Origin: an uncultured Actinomycetes bacterium
GTDB taxonomy: Bacteria > Actinomycetota > Thermoleophilia > Miltoncostaeales > Miltoncostaeaceae
Assembly (NCBI GenBank): GCA_937871165.1
Contig: CALMXK010000188.1
Span: 1-39,453, forward strand
DNA: 39,453 nucleotides
Direction: 5' to 3'
Shown here: positions 11,017 through 20,620 of the stretch, in pieces
Numbering within the stretch: the first letter of the stretch is position 1
How the letters are laid out: the number at the start of each line of letters is the position of its first letter
Program-made: the position numbers and the translations under genes
Notes under the pieces: model-generated
What the model was told of the DNA's origin: nothing
Databases searched by the model: none
The model's input: the letters and a program-made list of their open reading frames with translations, nothing else

Positions 11017-11098
11017 GGGGGGATGCCCGAGTGGTCAAAGGGAACGGTCTGTAAAATCGTCGGCTCCGCCTACGGAGGTTCGAACCCTCCTCCCCCCA
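11017..11098 (+). tRNA. tRNA-Tyr (GTA)
   Basis: An 82-nt class II tRNA with a long variable arm. The acceptor stem GGGGGGA pairs with TCCCCCC, the discriminator is A, the anticodon stem ACGGT/ATCGT flanks loop CTGTAAA with anticodon GTA, and the T arm is GGAGG-TTCGAAC-CCTCC. CCA is not encoded. It is the first of three closely spaced tRNA genes, probably one transcript. Confidence 0.96.
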
Positions 11099-11122
11099 CT
11101 AGCCGGTTTCGACCGGTGTTGT

Positions 11123-11195
<73 letters not shown>

Positions 11196-11216
11196 CTCGC
11201 CGCGAGGCGAGACTTT

Positions 11217-11290
11217 GGCGGCGTAGCTCAGTCGGTTAGAGCAGCGGAATCATAATCCGCGTGTCGTAGGTTCGAGTCCTACCGCCGCTA
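11217..11290 (+). tRNA. tRNA-Met (CAT), probably elongator
   Basis: A 74-nt tRNA with anticodon stem GCGGA/TCCGC, loop ATCATAA and anticodon CAT. The acceptor stem GGCGGCG/CGCCGCT has a G1-U72 wobble; discriminator A. The anticodon stem lacks the three consecutive G-C pairs of initiator tRNA, so it is an elongator Met or, less likely, a lysidine-modified Ile (CAU) tRNA. It lies 21 bp after tRNA-Thr. Confidence 0.92.
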
Positions 11291-13671: not shown

Positions 13672-15069
13672 GTGAATCGCGCACAGAAGACTGTGCTTGC
13701 GATTGCGTTGACAATCAGCGCGGCCGCCGCCCTCATCGCGATCCTGTTGGCAAGCAGTGCCGACGAACCTGTCTCGCCTCAGCTGTGGATCGGGCTGCTG
13801 CTCGGTGGCGCGCTCATGGAACTCGCCACCATCCCCGGCGACGAGGAAGAGGCGGAGCACCCGTTCAGCCTTGCCACGAGCTTTCACTTGGCGGCCGTCA
13901 TGCTGCTTCCAGGCGGCTGGGCCGCACTCATTGCCGGTGGCGCCACGCTGCTCGGCGAGACCGCCCGGCGCAAAAGTCCGATCCGCATCGCGTTCAACAC
14001 GGGTGTCGCGATCACAGCGACCCTCGCGGCCAAGCAGGTGTTCACCGGCCTGTCCCAGAGTGCGACCATCAGCGACCCGGGCTGGGGCATCTATGTGCCC
14101 GTGATCGCGATGCTGGTCGTGTACGTGGCGGTCACGGTGTTCGCCGTCGAGGCCATCAGCACGGCGACGACCGGCAACCGGTGGGATGTGCTCTCATGGG
14201 TCAAGCGGCCCGAACTTGTCAGCTACCTGATGGAGGGGTGCCTGGCGGTCGTGCTCGCCGTCCTGATCAAGGGTGCGCCGGAGGTGCTCGCGTTCGCCGT
14301 GATCCTGTTGGGCGCGGTGTTCTTGTCGATGAAACGCCATCGTGCGCTGCGTCGTGAGACCCGCCAGACGTTGAAGGCGCTCGCTGGCGCAGTCGACGCG
14401 CGGGATCCGTACACGGCCGAGCACTCCGAGCGTGTCGGGCAACTTGCGGCGCGGTTCGCCGAGGCGCTGCAGATGTCGGCCAAGGACGTCTCGGACGCGC
14501 GCTGGGCGGGACGGATGCACGATCTGGGCAAGGTTGTCGTCGACAACTCCATCCTCCACAAGGAGGGGGCGCTCGACGAACGCGAGTGGGAGCTGATGCG
14601 CAGCCACCCGAACGTGTCGGCCGACCTGCTGCAACCGCTCAGCCTCACGAGCGACCTGGCGCCCGCCATCCGCTACCACCACGAGCGCCCGGACGGTCTG
14701 GGCTACTACGGGCTGACCCTGGAGAACATGCCGGTCGAGGCGGCCATCATCACACTTGCCGACTCATACGACGCGATGACGACCAATCGGCCGTATCGCA
14801 GCGCCATGACTCATGAGGCCGCATGCAACCGCATCGAGCAGTGCCTCGGCACCCAGTTCCATCCGGTCCTCGGTCGCGCGTTCGTGCAGATGCTTCGTGG
14901 CGAGGCGGTCGACCCGGTCGAACTGCCGCGTCCGACCCGTCCGGAGCGGCGCTGGTTCTGGCAACGCGCCGCCGTGCCCACTGCCATCACGACCGACGAG
15001 GGATGGCAGCCGACGAGTGCGATCGATGCCGAGAAGTCCTCCACGGGCACCCATTCGCTGATACCCTGA
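13672..15069 (+). CDS. Membrane HD-GYP domain protein, probable c-di-GMP phosphodiesterase
   Basis: A 465-residue protein. Residues about 7-230 form a multi-helix membrane sensor region (for example VLAIALTISAAAALIAILLA and VIAMLVVYVAVTVFAVEAI). The HD-GYP domain follows: VDARDPYTAEHSERV, the metal-binding HDLGK at 283-287, RSHPNVSADLL, YHHERPDG, and then GYYG at 344-347 where the family has GYPxG. The metal ligands are present; the Pro-to-Tyr change affects the motif linked to GGDEF interaction and c-di-GMP specificity. The C-terminal tail is unstructured. Substrate hydrolysis is therefore likely but not certain. GTG 13693 is an alternative start. The stop lies just before the cobalamin riboswitch. 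Confidence 0.85.
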   Translation: MNRAQKTVLAIALTISAAAALIAILLASSADEPVSPQLWIGLLLGGALMELATIPGDEEEAEHPFSLATSFHLAAVMLLPGGWAALIAGGATLLGETARRKSPIRIAFNTGVAITATLAAKQVFTGLSQSATISDPGWGIYVPVIAMLVVYVAVTVFAVEAISTATTGNRWDVLSWVKRPELVSYLMEGCLAVVLAVLIKGAPEVLAFAVILLGAVFLSMKRHRALRRETRQTLKALAGAVDARDPYTAEHSERVGQLAARFAEALQMSAKDVSDARWAGRMHDLGKVVVDNSILHKEGALDEREWELMRSHPNVSADLLQPLSLTSDLAPAIRYHHERPDGLGYYGLTLENMPVEAAIITLADSYDAMTTNRPYRSAMTHEAACNRIEQCLGTQFHPVLGRAFVQMLRGEAVDPVELPRPTRPERRWFWQRAAVPTAITTDEGWQPTSAIDAEKSSTGTHSLIP

Positions 15070-15074
15070 GCGGG

Positions 15075-15240
15075 CTTCGGATGGTGGTCGCCGTGAGGCG
15101 CGTTGAGGGAAGCCGGTGCAAGTCCGGCACGGTCCCGCCACTGTAACCGCGAGCGTCACCGCACGGCATTTGCCGGCCACTGAGAAATCGGGAAGGCGCG
15201 GGAGGCGCGACGACCGGGAGTCAGGAGACCTGCCCCCATC
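15075..15240 (+). ncRNA. Cobalamin (B12) riboswitch
   Basis: The conserved cobalamin-aptamer core is clear: AGGGAAGCCGGTGCAAGTCC, then a GGTCCCGCCACTGTAA-type segment, later GGGAAGGCG, and the 3' GGGAGTCAGGAGACCTGCC. It begins within about 10 bp of the HD-GYP stop and ends about 60 bp before the lipoprotein start codon. Adenosylcobalamin-type ligands should switch off the downstream importer operon. Ends are approximate. Confidence 0.95.
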
Positions 15241-15259
15241 CAGAGCACCGCGGTACCCG

Positions 15260-15276
15260 GGGTGGTGTTGCCACCC
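15260..15276 (+). promoter_or_regulatory. Hairpin in the riboswitch expression platform
   Basis: GGGTGG and CCACCC pair around loop TGTTG. It lies between the aptamer and the purine-rich ribosome binding region GAGGAAGAGGAAG (15288-15300). There is no U-tract, so control of translation rather than termination is the simpler reading. This role is inferred. Confidence 0.4.
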
Positions 15277-15302
15277 GCACGACCTCCGAGGAAGAGGAAG
15301 CG

Positions 15303-16262
15303 GTGCACGTCAAATCAGTTTGCGGTTCGATCGGCCTGATGATGGTGATGATTTTGGGCGGCTGCGCTCGCGTGTCCGACGGCACGTCACGCAGCACGAC
15401 CTCCGTCTCTCCGGGCTCCACGGCGACCGTCGCCGGCCCCGTCGCGCTTCCCGAATCCGAGCCGCGTCAGCGCATCAGCGAAGGCTACGGCGCCACCGTG
15501 CTCGTGGACGACCAGCCGGTCGCACCGGGTCGGTCGGCCATGGATGTGCTTCGCGCGAGTACGCCCGTCGAGACGGCGTACGGGGGTGGGTTCGTTGCCG
15601 GCATGTACGGGCGCGTGTCGAGCACGAAACCGCGACGTGACTGGATGTACTTCGTGAACGGTGTGGCCCCCGGGGTCGGGGCCGCCGACTACACCGTCCG
15701 ACCAGGTGACCGGATCTGGTGGGACTTTCGGCGGTGGGACGACACCACTCCGACGCTGCCGGTGATCGTCGGCAGCTGGCCAGAGCCCTTCGTTCACGGG
15801 TACCCGGCGGCTCCCGAATCGGTGCAGGCGGATGCGCCACTTGACGCGGTGCTTTCGCGTCAGGGCGTTCGCGTGTCGTCCCGTCCGAGCTCCTGGCGGG
15901 TCATCGTCGGCGCCAACGCGGACCTGGTGGCCCGCGACGCCGCGTGGCGACGTGCGCTCGCCGACCCCACAGCCGCGGGTCTGCCGGTGCGCATCGACGG
16001 GGGCGCAATCTCGGTGATGGCTGTCGACGGCGGGCGGATGCGACCGGTTGCCGGGGCGGGTGCCGTGGCGGCCATGGTGTTGAGCAACGCCGGCCCCGAG
16101 CAGGGCGGCGTGGTCTTCGTGGTCGCAGGTGTCGATCGAAGCGCAGCCATTGCCGCGGCCCGCGCCATTGCCGCCGGGCCGGCGCTGCTTGCGGGACAGG
16201 TCGCGGTGGTGTTCGACCGGACCGGGCGGCCACTGGCCTCCGCGGGTCACGCCGCGCCGTGA
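15303..16262 (+). CDS. Cobalamin-operon lipoprotein with DUF4430 (transcobalamin-C-like) domain
   Basis: A 319-residue predicted lipoprotein. A short signal peptide ends in the lipobox LGGC with Cys21 as lipidation site, followed by a Ser/Thr-rich linker. Residues about 60-145 match the DUF4430/transcobalamin C-terminal-like pattern: SAMDVLRAS, GGFVAGMYG, RDWMYFVNG and the ending YTVRPGDRIWWDFRRW. Residues about 150-319 form a second region with no recognised family. The start is GTG after a strong purine-rich ribosome binding site, directly under a cobalamin riboswitch and coupled by GTGA to the ECF transporter genes. It probably captures cobalamin or a related corrinoid outside the membrane and hands it to the S component. 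Binding itself is inferred. Confidence 0.85.
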   Translation: MHVKSVCGSIGLMMVMILGGCARVSDGTSRSTTSVSPGSTATVAGPVALPESEPRQRISEGYGATVLVDDQPVAPGRSAMDVLRASTPVETAYGGGFVAGMYGRVSSTKPRRDWMYFVNGVAPGVGAADYTVRPGDRIWWDFRRWDDTTPTLPVIVGSWPEPFVHGYPAAPESVQADAPLDAVLSRQGVRVSSRPSSWRVIVGANADLVARDAAWRRALADPTAAGLPVRIDGGAISVMAVDGGRMRPVAGAGAVAAMVLSNAGPEQGGVVFVVAGVDRSAAIAAARAIAAGPALLAGQVAVVFDRTGRPLASAGHAAP

Positions 16263-17104
16263 TCACCCGCGCCCCGGGGCCGCTGCTCGTTGTCGGCGTC
16301 GGCCTGTGTGCGCTCGCGTTCTCGACGGCACATCCCATGATCATGGCCGCCGTCCTCGTGGTGGCCGTCGCGCTGCTGTTGGCGTCTCGAACGCCGGCGC
16401 GCGGGGTGCTGCTGATCGCCGGGATCCTGGGTGTGGGGGTCGCGGTGCTGAACCCGTTCGTGCAGGCCTCCGGCGACCTGATCCTGTTCCAACTGCCGGA
16501 GATTCCCATCTTCGACATGCAGGTGACGCTCGAGGAGGTGATGGCCGGGCTGACGCTCGGGGCACGGGCGGCGGCGGTGACGATCGTGGTGATGGCCGTG
16601 CTCGCGCTCGCCGACCCGGACCGTCTGCTGCAACTTGCAAGCCGGCTCGCGCCACGCTCGGCGCTCGCCGCGTCGGTGGCGGCACGCATGGTGCCGACCC
16701 TTCGCCGTGACGCCGTCGCACTGGTCGAAACGTCGCGTCTTCGGGGTCGCTCGCCGCGCGTCGGATCATGGGTGGCCCGAGGACGCACAGCAAGCACGTT
16801 GGCCTTGCCACTCGTCGGGTCCGCACTCGAACGCTCGCTCGACGTGGCGGAGGCCATGGCGGCGCGCGGCTACGGCGTCGGCACCCCCACGCGTCGTCCC
16901 CGAGTGGCGTGGGACGCCGTCGACCGGTTCACCATGGCCGTCGGCGTGGGGATGTGTCTTGTGGCGTTCGCCTCGATCGCCGGGTGGCTCGGCCGGTACG
17001 GGTTCTTCCCGACCATGGACCCGCTCATCGACGTCCGGAGCCTGGTCGCGGCCGTCGGCACCGTCCTCGCCGGGATTGTCCTCGCCGGGGCGATTCGTCG
17101 ATGA
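16259..17104 (+). CDS. ecfT: ECF transporter transmembrane coupling protein EcfT
   Basis: A 281-residue membrane protein starting with GTG that overlaps the lipoprotein stop (GTGA). It has several hydrophobic helices (LLVVGVGLCALAF, IMAAVLVVAVALLLA, AAVTIVVMAVLALA, and two near the C-terminus). The CbiQ/EcfT coupling helices carry the two Arg-Gly signatures SRLRG (about 160) and MAARGYG (about 201-207), which dock into the ATPase grooves. Its stop overlaps the ATPase gene as ATGA. It links ATP hydrolysis to movement of the substrate-binding component. Confidence 0.9.
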   Translation: MITRAPGPLLVVGVGLCALAFSTAHPMIMAAVLVVAVALLLASRTPARGVLLIAGILGVGVAVLNPFVQASGDLILFQLPEIPIFDMQVTLEEVMAGLTLGARAAAVTIVVMAVLALADPDRLLQLASRLAPRSALAASVAARMVPTLRRDAVALVETSRLRGRSPRVGSWVARGRTASTLALPLVGSALERSLDVAEAMAARGYGVGTPTRRPRVAWDAVDRFTMAVGVGMCLVAFASIAGWLGRYGFFPTMDPLIDVRSLVAAVGTVLAGIVLAGAIRR

Positions 17105-18483
17105 TCGCCGCCGCGTTGACCGACGTGCGGTTCACCCACACCGGTCGGCAACGTCCGGCGCTTGACGGAGTCTCGTTGCAGGTGCGTGCCGGCGAGATCC
17201 TGCTGGTGGAGGGCCCGTCGGGATCGGGCAAGTCGACCTTGCTGCGGGCGATCGCCGGACTCGCACCGCACTTCACCGGCGGCCGGTTCGAAGGGACGGT
17301 CCACGTCTTCGGCGCCGACACGCGCCGCGCCGGGACCGCCGAACTGGCCCGCGATGTGGGACTCGTCTTCCAGGATCCGGAGACCCAGGCGGTCCGGACC
17401 GGCGTGTCTGCCGATGTTGCGTTCGGGCCCGAGAACCTTGGTGTGGCGGCCGGTGCAATCGGGCCGCGCGTCGAGCGGGCGCTCCGCGACGCCCGCGCGA
17501 CGCACCTTGCCGATCGTGTGGTCACCACCCTGTCCGGCGGCGAGCGTCAGCGCGCGGCGCTTGCCGCCGTCCTCGCCGGGGAGCCCCGCATCCTGCTGCT
17601 TGACGAACCCACCTCACAGCTCGACGGGGCCGCGGTGGCGGCACTCGACGGGATCTTGCGCGATCAAGCGGCACGCGGCGTCGCCGTGGTGATCACCGAA
17701 CATCACGCCCATCGCTTGTCGACCATCGCCGATCGGATCGTCCGTCTGGAGCGCGGACGGCTGGTGGACCGCGTCGACGATGCGGTCCCCTTGCCGGTGC
17801 GGGTGGCCGCACGAGGTCGTGTGGCCGTCGAGGTGCGTCACGTGTCTGCACGATTTGCCGATCGGCCGGTGCTTCGCCGGTGCACCGTGACACTCACCGA
17901 GGGAACCGTCACCGCACTGCATGGCGACAACGGCGCAGGCAAGTCCACGCTGCTTCGGGCGGTGATGGGCCTGCACCCGATCGAGGACGGGGCGATCGTG
18001 GTCGACGGCCGGGACGTCACACGAATGGCGACCGAGGCCCGGGTTCCGACGCTGGGCTTCTTGCCCCAGGACGCCGGCCGGCGCTTGATTCATGAACGGG
18101 TCGCCGACGAGCTGGTCGATGCCGTTCGCGGCGTCGGTGCGCTTGAGCTGGACCGGCGGCTTCGACAGGTGGTGGAGGACCTGGATCTCGGTGCGCTCCT
18201 GGGGCGCCACCCGCTCGATCTGTCCGTGGGTGAGCGTGAACGTGTGGCGCTCGGAGCGGTGCTGATGGCCGACCCGCGCGTGATCTTGCTCGACGAGCCG
18301 ACTCGGGGCATGGACGCGGCCCATCGGGCGACGTTGGTGGCGGCGATCAGGAGGAGAAGCGCTGATGGCGCCGCTGTGCTCGTCGCCACGCATGACCCGC
18401 AGTTCGCGCTCGCGATCGCGGACGAACACATCCGGATCCGCGAAGGGGTGATCGTGGACGAGACGGTTGCGGTGGCCGGATGA
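17101..18483 (+). CDS. Fused ECF transporter ATPases (EcfA-EcfA')
   Basis: A 460-residue protein containing two ABC ATPase domains in one chain. Domain 1 has Walker A GPSGSGKS (38-45), signature LSGGERQR (from 144), Walker B ILLLDEPT (from 164) and switch histidine in ITEHH. Domain 2 has Walker A GDNGAGKS (276-283), the variant signature LSVGERER (from 374), Walker B VILLDEPT and ATHD. In ECF systems the two ATPases are often separate genes; here one polypeptide supplies both. The atypical second signature hints at asymmetric ATP sites. ATGA overlaps join it to genes on both sides. Confidence 0.94.
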   Translation: MIAAALTDVRFTHTGRQRPALDGVSLQVRAGEILLVEGPSGSGKSTLLRAIAGLAPHFTGGRFEGTVHVFGADTRRAGTAELARDVGLVFQDPETQAVRTGVSADVAFGPENLGVAAGAIGPRVERALRDARATHLADRVVTTLSGGERQRAALAAVLAGEPRILLLDEPTSQLDGAAVAALDGILRDQAARGVAVVITEHHAHRLSTIADRIVRLERGRLVDRVDDAVPLPVRVAARGRVAVEVRHVSARFADRPVLRRCTVTLTEGTVTALHGDNGAGKSTLLRAVMGLHPIEDGAIVVDGRDVTRMATEARVPTLGFLPQDAGRRLIHERVADELVDAVRGVGALELDRRLRQVVEDLDLGALLGRHPLDLSVGERERVALGAVLMADPRVILLDEPTRGMDAAHRATLVAAIRRRSADGAAVLVATHDPQFALAIADEHIRIREGVIVDETVAVAG

Positions 18484-19118
18484 GCGGCGCGAGCCTCGTC
18501 ATCACCACCGTGCTCGCGGTGCTCGCCGTCGGGCTGCTCATCGTCGAACGCGGCACACCCGATCCGCGCCGCATCGCGGTGATCGCCGCGTTGGCGGCCG
18601 CCGCCACCGCCGGGCGCCTGCTCTTTGTCGCGATCCCGAGCGTCAAACCGGTGACGGTCATCGTGCTGGTGACAGGCGCGGTTCTCGGTGCTCGCGCGGG
18701 GTTCACCGTCGGCGCACTCACGCCGCTGCTGTCCAACGTGGCGCTCGGACAAGGCACCTGGACGCCCGGCCAGATGACCCTGTGGGGCCTCGTCGGGGTG
18801 ACTGGGGCGCTGCTTGGTCCTGTGTGTCGCAACACCCGTGGTCTGGCGCTCGTCGGCGCCGTGTGGGGAATCCTGTTCGGGTGGGGGATGAACCTGTGGG
18901 ACATGGCCGTGCTCGGGCCCACGTTCACATGGAGCACATTCGTTGCACGGGCCGGTACGAGCCTGTGGTTCGACGTGGCCCACGCAGTCGGCAACATCGT
19001 GTTCGCGCTCGTGATCGGTGGCGGGCTTGCGCGGCTGCTCGTTCGCTACCGCAACCGGATCACCACGCACATCGTCTGGTCGGCCGCGGTCGACGGCGAC
19101 GGTGTGAGGACCGTCTAG
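18480..19118 (+). CDS. ECF transporter substrate-binding S component, probably for cobalamin
   Basis: A 212-residue membrane protein with about six helices. The region RLLFVAIPSVKPVTVIVLVT through GARAGFTVGALTPLLSN, followed by GQGTWTPGQM, is typical of the CbrT-like group of S components annotated for cobalamin. It is the last gene of the riboswitch-controlled operon and overlaps the ATPase stop as ATGA. Specificity for B12 rests on the riboswitch and family resemblance. Its TAG stop shares a CTAG palindrome with the stop of the convergent lyase-like gene, leaving no room for a terminator between them. Confidence 0.9.
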   Translation: MSGASLVITTVLAVLAVGLLIVERGTPDPRRIAVIAALAAAATAGRLLFVAIPSVKPVTVIVLVTGAVLGARAGFTVGALTPLLSNVALGQGTWTPGQMTLWGLVGVTGALLGPVCRNTRGLALVGAVWGILFGWGMNLWDMAVLGPTFTWSTFVARAGTSLWFDVAHAVGNIVFALVIGGGLARLLVRYRNRITTHIVWSAAVDGDGVRTV

Positions 19119-20620
19119 CCGGCGAGCTCCCTGGCGCGTCCGAGCAGGCGGTCGGTCGCGAGGTCCGCGCGGCGGCGGTTGCCGGTGATCCAGGCGCGAT
19201 CGGCGAGTCCTCGGTCCCGGCCGTCGGCCACCATCGCCGCGATCTGCTGCGGGGTTGCCGAGCCGATCTGGGTACGGGCGGCAAGGCACGCGGCCGGGTC
19301 GAGGGCCGCTTCGACGGCCTCGTCGGGAATGTGGACGCGGCCTCCGGCGATCTCCATCCCGATGGTGCGAAGGAGCTCACCGGTGAGTGCGGACGGGGGC
19401 AGACCCTCGTCGCTCAGGCGCCGAACGGATCGGCCGACGATGGTGTGGGCGGTGCGGTAGTCGATGTCGGCCACCTGTGCCACCACGTCGGCCACGTCGG
19501 CGGCCACGGTGAAGCCCTCACGCGCGGCGGCCGCCATCGCATTTTGGTTGACCGTCAGGTCGCTCACAACGGCGGCGCTGAGCGCCGTGGTGCGGACCGC
19601 ATTGCCGAGCAGCGTGGGAATGCCGCCGTTCAACACCTGGTAGTTGTCGGTTCGTGCAGAACCAGTGTGCAGGGCGGTGAGGATCGTGGTGACCATGCCC
19701 GCCGCCTCGGCCGCTGCCGCGCGGATGACCGGCAGCGCGTACGGGTTCTTCTTCTGCGGCATCAGGTCGCTCTGGCGGCTGTGGGCGTCGGCGAGTTCCA
19801 CGGCGCCGAACTCACGGCTGCACAGGATCTCCAGGTCTTGTGCCAATTGTGACTGTCCGGTGAGTGCGATGGCGACGACCGATGCCAGGTCGGCGTATCC
19901 GTCGGCCGCCCACATCGCATCCTTCGTGTGGATGGCGACGGCCTCGCAGCCCAGGTACTCCGCCAGGCGCGCCCGATCGAGTGGCCACCGCGATCCGGAG
20001 CTGCCGCCGCATCCGGCGACGCTGTGGTCGAGCCAGTCGTGAACACGTCGCAGGCGTTCGACATCCCGCCGCACGGCCTCGGCGAACCCCAGCATCAGGT
20101 GGCCGAAGGTCGTCGGTTGGGCCGGCTGCAGGTAGGTGTAGTCGGCGGCAAGCGTGGCCGCGTGGCGCTCACCCTGGTCGGTCAGCGCGTCGGCCAGGTC
20201 GAGCAGTCGGTCCGCCAGGTCGAGCACGCCGCGGCGGGCGACGATCCGCAAAGCGACGCGGAAGGCTTCACGTCGTGGGCGCCCGGCGGTCAGCCAGCCG
20301 GACGCGGCCGGACCAACCCGTTCGCGAAGCACATGCTCGCGTGAATTGAACGCGTCGCCGCGACTGGCGTCCCAGGGGAACTCGTCGGCAGGGATGTCGT
20401 GCAGCTCCAACAGGCCCGCCACGAGGTCGCGACCGGTCTCGCCACGGACGGCGCCCGCGTCGAGCAGCACCACCGCATGGGCGAGGTCCGACAGGGACAG
20501 CGCCTCGGCGAGTGCCTGGCCGTGGGCGATCTCCGCCTGATGTCCTGCCGCCACGAGTTCGGGGGCCGGGCCTCCCGCGAGACGTCCGGTCCGGCCCAGA
20601 TTCACGTCGCCGTCGCTCAT
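19115..20620 (-). CDS. Divergent argininosuccinate lyase-like protein
   Basis: A 501-residue member of the fumarase/argininosuccinate lyase superfamily, cytoplasmic and expected to be a homotetramer. The signature loop is SRQSDLMPQKKNP (281-293): the catalytic serine (Ser284) is kept but GSS has become QSD. The TH-LQPAQP histidine that helps catalysis in ArgH is Tyr163 here (YTYLQPAQP), and the substrate-binding TGRSRND is replaced by AGRPRRE (112-118). The NS-DA loop is also changed (TKDAM). The enzyme may therefore act on another substrate or be inactive as ArgH. No arginine-biosynthesis gene is nearby. Its ATG overlaps the stop of a CopZ-like metallochaperone gene. Confidence 0.8.
   Translation of the reverse strand: MSDGDVNLGRTGRLAGGPAPELVAAGHQAEIAHGQALAEALSLSDLAHAVVLLDAGAVRGETGRDLVAGLLELHDIPADEFPWDASRGDAFNSREHVLRERVGPAASGWLTAGRPRREAFRVALRIVARRGVLDLADRLLDLADALTDQGERHAATLAADYTYLQPAQPTTFGHLMLGFAEAVRRDVERLRRVHDWLDHSVAGCGGSSGSRWPLDRARLAEYLGCEAVAIHTKDAMWAADGYADLASVVAIALTGQSQLAQDLEILCSREFGAVELADAHSRQSDLMPQKKNPYALPVIRAAAAEAAGMVTTILTALHTGSARTDNYQVLNGGIPTLLGNAVRTTALSAAVVSDLTVNQNAMAAAAREGFTVAADVADVVAQVADIDYRTAHTIVGRSVRRLSDEGLPPSALTGELLRTIGMEIAGGRVHIPDEAVEAALDPAACLAARTQIGSATPQQIAAMVADGRDRGLADRAWITGNRRRADLATDRLLGRARELAG

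Follow-up and report, generated by a model that had tools for sequence, protein, structure and literature searches.

A probable ECF operon behind a cobalamin riboswitch

In the window (the whole 39,453-nucleotide stretch of DNA analysed), a cobalamin riboswitch is followed by four genes, encoding a DUF4430 lipoprotein, EcfT, a double EcfA ATPase and an S component. The aptamer (15068..15251, + strand) scores 100.4 bits against RF00174 in cmscan (E 3.9e-24), over the full model (1–189 of 189) and above the gathering score of 31.5 bits, which places it in this family; a preliminary description had put its start at 15075, seven bases within the element. Free-energy folding was set aside as riboswitch evidence in favour of the covariance model, the minimum free energy of the leader being ordinary for its GC content (z -0.47). 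All three gene junctions are 4-base overlaps (GTGA, ATGA and ATGA), so a single translationally coupled operon is very probable, and the preliminary picture of a riboswitch preceding four overlapping genes is borne out.

The GTG start of the lipoprotein gene lies 51 bases 3' of the riboswitch end. A possible expression platform (15283..15297, +) can be read from the sequence of this interval: a CCTCC motif (15283–15287), just 5' of the purine-rich ribosome-binding site GGAAGAGG (15290–15297), may engage in anti-Shine-Dalgarno pairing. Upstream, the window holds a gene for a membrane HD-domain (HD-GYP-like) protein (13672–15069, +), whose stop codon falls at the first bases of the riboswitch, and three tRNA genes in a row (11017–11290, +). 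At the other end, an argininosuccinate-lyase-family gene (19115–20620, -; Lyase_1 E 1.6e-35, and ASL_C2) converges on ecfS with an overlap of 4 bases. A copy of this lyase, 53–61% identical, adjoins ecfS in many loci of the host's family, including in genera whose remaining operon is reshuffled.

The transporter genes were assigned by profile matches. EcfT, the transmembrane coupling component (16259..17104, +; GTG start), matches PF02361 CbiQ (E 2.9e-12) and, under the cut-off, TIGR02454 (E 2.5e-8). The EcfA-EcfA' double ATPase (17101..18483, +; ATG start) is one chain with two ABC_tran stretches (E 6.6e-57), its best NCBIfam matches being TIGR04520/04521. These Pfam and NCBIfam matches confirm the earlier assignments of EcfT and the single-chain double ATPase, as PF14478 does for the lipoprotein. 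The S component (18480..19118, +; ATG start) gives only weak matches to Pfam ECF S-component families (E 0.006–0.008). A profile built from 18 S components of the host's family, searched against the whole PDB, matched a single chain, 6FNP_A (E 5e-17), which is CbrT of the Lactobacillus delbrueckii B12 transporter, and the protein thus belongs by sequence homology to the CbrT type. As the profile finds CbrT alone in the PDB, the label "CbrT-like", already used in the preliminary description, becomes a tested statement that goes beyond resemblance. With EcfT, EcfA/A' and the S component encoded in one operon, the system is a group-I ECF transporter.

The DUF4430 lipoprotein

The first gene of the operon (15303..16262, +; GTG start) encodes a 319-residue protein that is a candidate for corrinoid capture. 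Its predicted signal peptide, MHVKSVCGSIGLMMVMILGGC, carries a lipobox cysteine at residue 21 (ILGGC; 15363..15365, +), marking it as a putative bacterial lipoprotein, and the cysteine is aligned in 21/21 homologues. The DUF4430, or transcobalamin-type beta-grasp, domain spans residues 76–142 (15528..15728, +), where PF14478 is matched with E 1.4e-16 and 61.1 bits against a cut-off of 23.8 bits; the same family is matched by all 21 of the aligned family homologues.

An AlphaFold2 model computed from the family alignment has a mean pLDDT of 88, the mature chain being disordered over its first 29 residues. Foldseek comparison of this model returned 3u7z, a bacterial DUF4430 structure (E 4e-4, probability 1.00), the haptocorrin structure 4kki (E 1.7e-3, probability 1.00) and 5np4, in which the beta domain of human transcobalamin, on its own, is seen with cyanocobalamin bound (E 3.5e-3, probability 1.00). 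Transcobalamin and intrinsic factor were also among the matches, all at 0.99–1.00, and the predicted fold is therefore a beta-grasp of the transcobalamin beta-domain kind. No Pfam match to a periplasmic-binding-protein domain of the BtuF type was found in the lipoprotein. An apparent kinship with interleukin-2 receptor and FlhE, seen when the single protein was searched with phmmer (E 0.014 or worse), was not repeated by the family profile and was put down to chance.

Beyond the DUF4430 domain lies a C-terminal alpha/beta region (residues 150–319; 15750..16259, +), which the preliminary description had left as an unassigned second region. It proves to be a genuine folded part of the protein: the model is confident there (pLDDT mostly above 90), and the family alignment runs through it to the C-terminus, with a mean column identity within the family of 69%, against 71% for the DUF4430 part. 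It has no significant family match, and a resemblance to BcsB was rejected as too weak (Pfam E 0.29–0.041; Foldseek probability about 0.4). Several other families have DUF4430 proteins that share the region, while in others it is apparently absent or strongly diverged, which makes it an optional part of the system.

A second riboswitch locus

RF00174 is found twice in the host genome (2.64 Mb, 94% complete), each time ahead of one of its two DUF4430 genes. On contig C200 (locus L055), the second riboswitch (11844–11710) is followed by the second DUF4430 gene (11661–10537) and, overlapping it, by a gene for a secreted alpha/alpha-toroid (10540–9683). The toroid model comprises 12 helices (pLDDT 95); its best matches are squalene-hopene cyclases and prenyltransferases, and transcobalamin is matched too, though not among the best. 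The toroid profile likewise matches squalene-hopene cyclases, and the protein itself matches SQHop_cyclase_C in Pfam (E 3e-4) and does not match PF01122 (Cobalamin_bind). The system accordingly falls outside the transcobalamin/intrinsic factor family proper, the toroid being a separate gene at another locus and lacking PF01122. Transcobalamin is built from these two domain types, toroid and DUF4430, which the host encodes in separate genes under B12 riboswitches. In another genome, G013, one riboswitch precedes the toroid and lipoprotein genes; an open frame of 678 residues, considered as a possible fusion of the two, was rejected as two overlapping genes in different frames.

Distribution of the system

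Across 42 genomes of the host's family, 36 of the 58 DUF4430 matches lie 187–1069 nt downstream of an RF00174 element on the same strand. In the wider phylum, a CbrT-like S component was found in 66 of 297 genomes and DUF4430 in 53, both being present in 50 (by genome, Fisher p 9e-39, uncorrected for kinship). Counted by family, of which there are at least 61, 14 share both, seven have the S component only and one has DUF4430 only (p 7e-8 or lower). In 40 of the 50 co-occurrence genomes, DUF4430 lies 2.5–3.7 kb upstream of the S gene on the same strand. The co-occurrence of DUF4430 with ECF S genes that the preliminary description had proposed to look for is thus strongly positive. B12 riboswitches recur ahead of ECF-CbrT-like operons, and in other families a recurring order is DUF4430 (often two copies), ecfT, ecfA, ecfS and toroid in one operon; in several DUF4430-ECF operons the toroid profile found no match.

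The arrangement is looser in one genus (g12), where a riboswitch, ecfA and ecfS are at one site and ecfT is elsewhere. The lipoprotein gene of this genus lacks a riboswitch and is found at neither site; its neighbours, as read from the sequence, are tadA and a gene for an ABC permease. A DUF4430-toroid pair stands under a separate riboswitch. Some operons with a divergent S component have no PF14478 match. That these lack a capture protein was considered, and absence is not established: in those examined a toroid gene is mostly present, and in L172 and L180 it is followed by a gene for a secreted protein of no assigned family. One divergent operon (L180) extends into cobU, a gene for a histidine phosphatase, cobT and cobS; cobU, cobT and cobS are genes of cobinamide salvage, and their presence is an independent tie to corrinoid salvage.

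Further secreted proteins were seen in and around these operons. Between toroid and ecfT, L172 (4772–5755, -) and L180 (1461–2405, +) encode a secreted protein without Pfam match, whose sequence, inspected by eye, resembles a highly divergent beta domain of the transcobalamin type. Long open frames (about 1,080–1,940 residues), with up to three DUF4430 domains each, occur in or near the ECF-CbrT operons of L133, L136, L145, L156, L159, L162 and L165, and the two of these that were scanned by Pfam also gave beta-propeller-like matches. In L134, L138 and L144, a secreted protein of about 850–900 residues is encoded between the riboswitch and the DUF4430 lipoprotein gene; its fold, judged by eye, resembles a PQQ-type beta-propeller followed by repeats. 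BtuG of Bacteroides, which binds B12, is a propeller as well.

Proposed role and alternative explanations

Gene content and order, the RF00174 elements, homology, predicted folds and the genome-wide association form the basis of the model proposed here: the operon probably encodes a group-I ECF importer of the CbrT family that takes up cobalamin or other corrinoids and has a capture protein outside the cytoplasm. The host encodes MetH and another B12-binding protein, and no match was found in its genome to CbiC, a corrin-ring enzyme common to both known pathways. The presence of MetH, with CbiC undetected at the completeness given above, suggests that the host depends on external corrinoid, and it probably scavenges B12.

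When B12 is scarce, the riboswitch would permit expression of the operon, and Cys-21 would anchor the lipoprotein on the outside of the membrane. There its DUF4430 domain, of the transcobalamin beta-domain type, may hold the corrinoid, with the toroid protein from the second riboswitch locus on contig C200 as its probable partner; the pair would act like a transcobalamin divided between two chains and would concentrate B12 at the wall. The captured B12 would then be passed to the S component, and EcfT and the double ATPase would drive its movement inwards. This "split transcobalamin", in which lipoprotein and toroid close round one corrinoid at the surface and hand it over to the CbrT-like S component, is put forward tentatively, at somewhat less than an even chance; it would give an ECF importer a functioning receptor outside the cytoplasm, made of the two domain types that the animal B12 carriers use.

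How far the transporter would rely on such a partner can be judged from L. delbrueckii, whose CbrT binds and imports both cobalamin and cobinamide. CbrT alone binds cobalamin at about 9 nM, and the ECF-CbrT complex imports it with no further partner, both in liposomes and in E. coli (PMC5997447). As that transporter works without a capture protein, an obligate role for one is unlikely, and given also the dispersed system of genus g12, the lipoprotein is more likely a capture enhancer than an obligate component.

The same partnerless function, in vitro and in E. coli (PMC5997447), would also fit a system in which the ECF transporter imports B12 unaided and the lipoprotein is an accessory without useful corrinoid affinity, for example one that anchors the toroid or other surface proteins in the membrane, or docks them at the S component. 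An isolated DUF4430 domain is, moreover, only half a transcobalamin, and the lipoprotein has its extra C-terminal region of no assigned family. We nevertheless regard this alternative as unlikely: DUF4430 is retained alongside the CbrT-like S component in 50 of the 66 genomes that have the latter, is there even in operons where the toroid was not found, and the human beta domain with cyanocobalamin (5np4) is among the fold matches of the lipoprotein. Doubtful to a similar degree is that the main cargo is an incomplete corrinoid (cobinamide) or another B12 precursor, a reading compatible with capture by the lipoprotein; cobinamide is bound and transported by CbrT too (PMC5997447) and the L180 operon is joined to cobU, cobT and cobS, but the riboswitch and MetH indicate corrinoids in general only. 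That the S component serves another vitamin, with the riboswitch and DUF4430 context misleading, would accord with its weak Pfam matches but is very improbable, the sole solved relative found being the B12-specific CbrT and B12 riboswitches standing repeatedly ahead of ECF-CbrT-like operons.

ECF importers have been described with the membrane-embedded S component as their sole binding protein. If a corrinoid importer with a capture protein is indeed encoded here, that description would need revising for corrinoids in view of a conserved, B12-regulated capture protein of the transcobalamin type, DUF4430 would gain a function, and the animal B12 carriers would have two-gene counterparts in bacteria. 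The clean operons give concrete sets of proteins for expression and testing.

Comparison with known systems

The preliminary description had suggested that a tethered capture protein beside an ECF importer would be a distinct architecture. That it is distinct and unreported is not supported, as Burroughs et al. 2007 (PMC1796856) predicted such operons; a lipoprotein annotation in PMC9963975 and the DUF4430 gene upstream of cbrT in Lactobacillales also count against it. The kind is already known as a prediction. That paper describes bacterial transcobalamin-like SLBB proteins, toroid fusions and second SLBB paralogues, with operons that include a CbiO-like ATPase and a CbiQ-like membrane protein and a predicted role in B12 scavenging, and places the origin of the animal B12 carriers in Gram-positive bacteria (PMC1796856). 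The present system is alike in its secreted SLBB (DUF4430) protein, sometimes as two paralogues, its toroid domains and its CbiO- and CbiQ-like genes. It differs in that the taxa given there are low-GC Gram-positives, planctomycetes and some archaea; that the toroid is there fused to SLBB, whereas here toroid and DUF4430 are separate genes over two riboswitch loci; and that the text consulted names neither an S component nor a riboswitch, both of which are present here.

In L. rhamnosus, a protein is annotated as an "additional lipoprotein component of putative cobalamin ECF transporter" (PMC9963975), which by this annotation has the same predicted role beside a cobalamin ECF system. Among related Lactobacillales, cbrT is immediately preceded by a DUF4430 gene, probably the cbrS of the cluster named nrdJ-cbrS-cbrT-pduO in PMC5997447. 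This DUF4430 gene looks degraded in L. delbrueckii DSM 20074, and the Lactobacillales DUF4430 proteins have 126–154 residues in the loci examined, against 319 residues and an extra region here. The ECF-CbrT of L. delbrueckii (6FNP; Santos et al. 2018, PMC5997447; CbrTUV type) shares the CbrT-family S component and the B12-linked context. Its ECF module is shared among many S components (group II) and its ATPases are two chains, whereas the present system is a dedicated group-I operon behind a B12 riboswitch, with its two ATPases fused into one chain and a lipoprotein of greater size.

No report of corrinoid binding by a bacterial DUF4430 protein was found in the open-access literature. To the earlier prediction are added the assignment of the S component to the CbrT family, B12 riboswitches as a recurrent form of control, a quantitative association, a toroid encoded by a gene of its own, either within the operon or behind a riboswitch of its own, and the extra lipoprotein region. 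The features that make the system a variant are its unfused toroid gene, its division between two riboswitches and the additional lipoprotein domain. Like BtuG and BtuH of Bacteroides (PMC6143338, PMC8941943), the lipoprotein would be a surface lipoprotein that captures B12 for a transporter, although those proteins have different folds and serve the outer-membrane BtuB system. With vertebrate transcobalamin, intrinsic factor and haptocorrin, the system has in common the alpha/alpha toroid and DUF4430 beta domain types; the vertebrate carriers are each one soluble chain, whereas here the two are encoded by separate genes, one of them for a predicted lipoprotein, beside an ECF importer.
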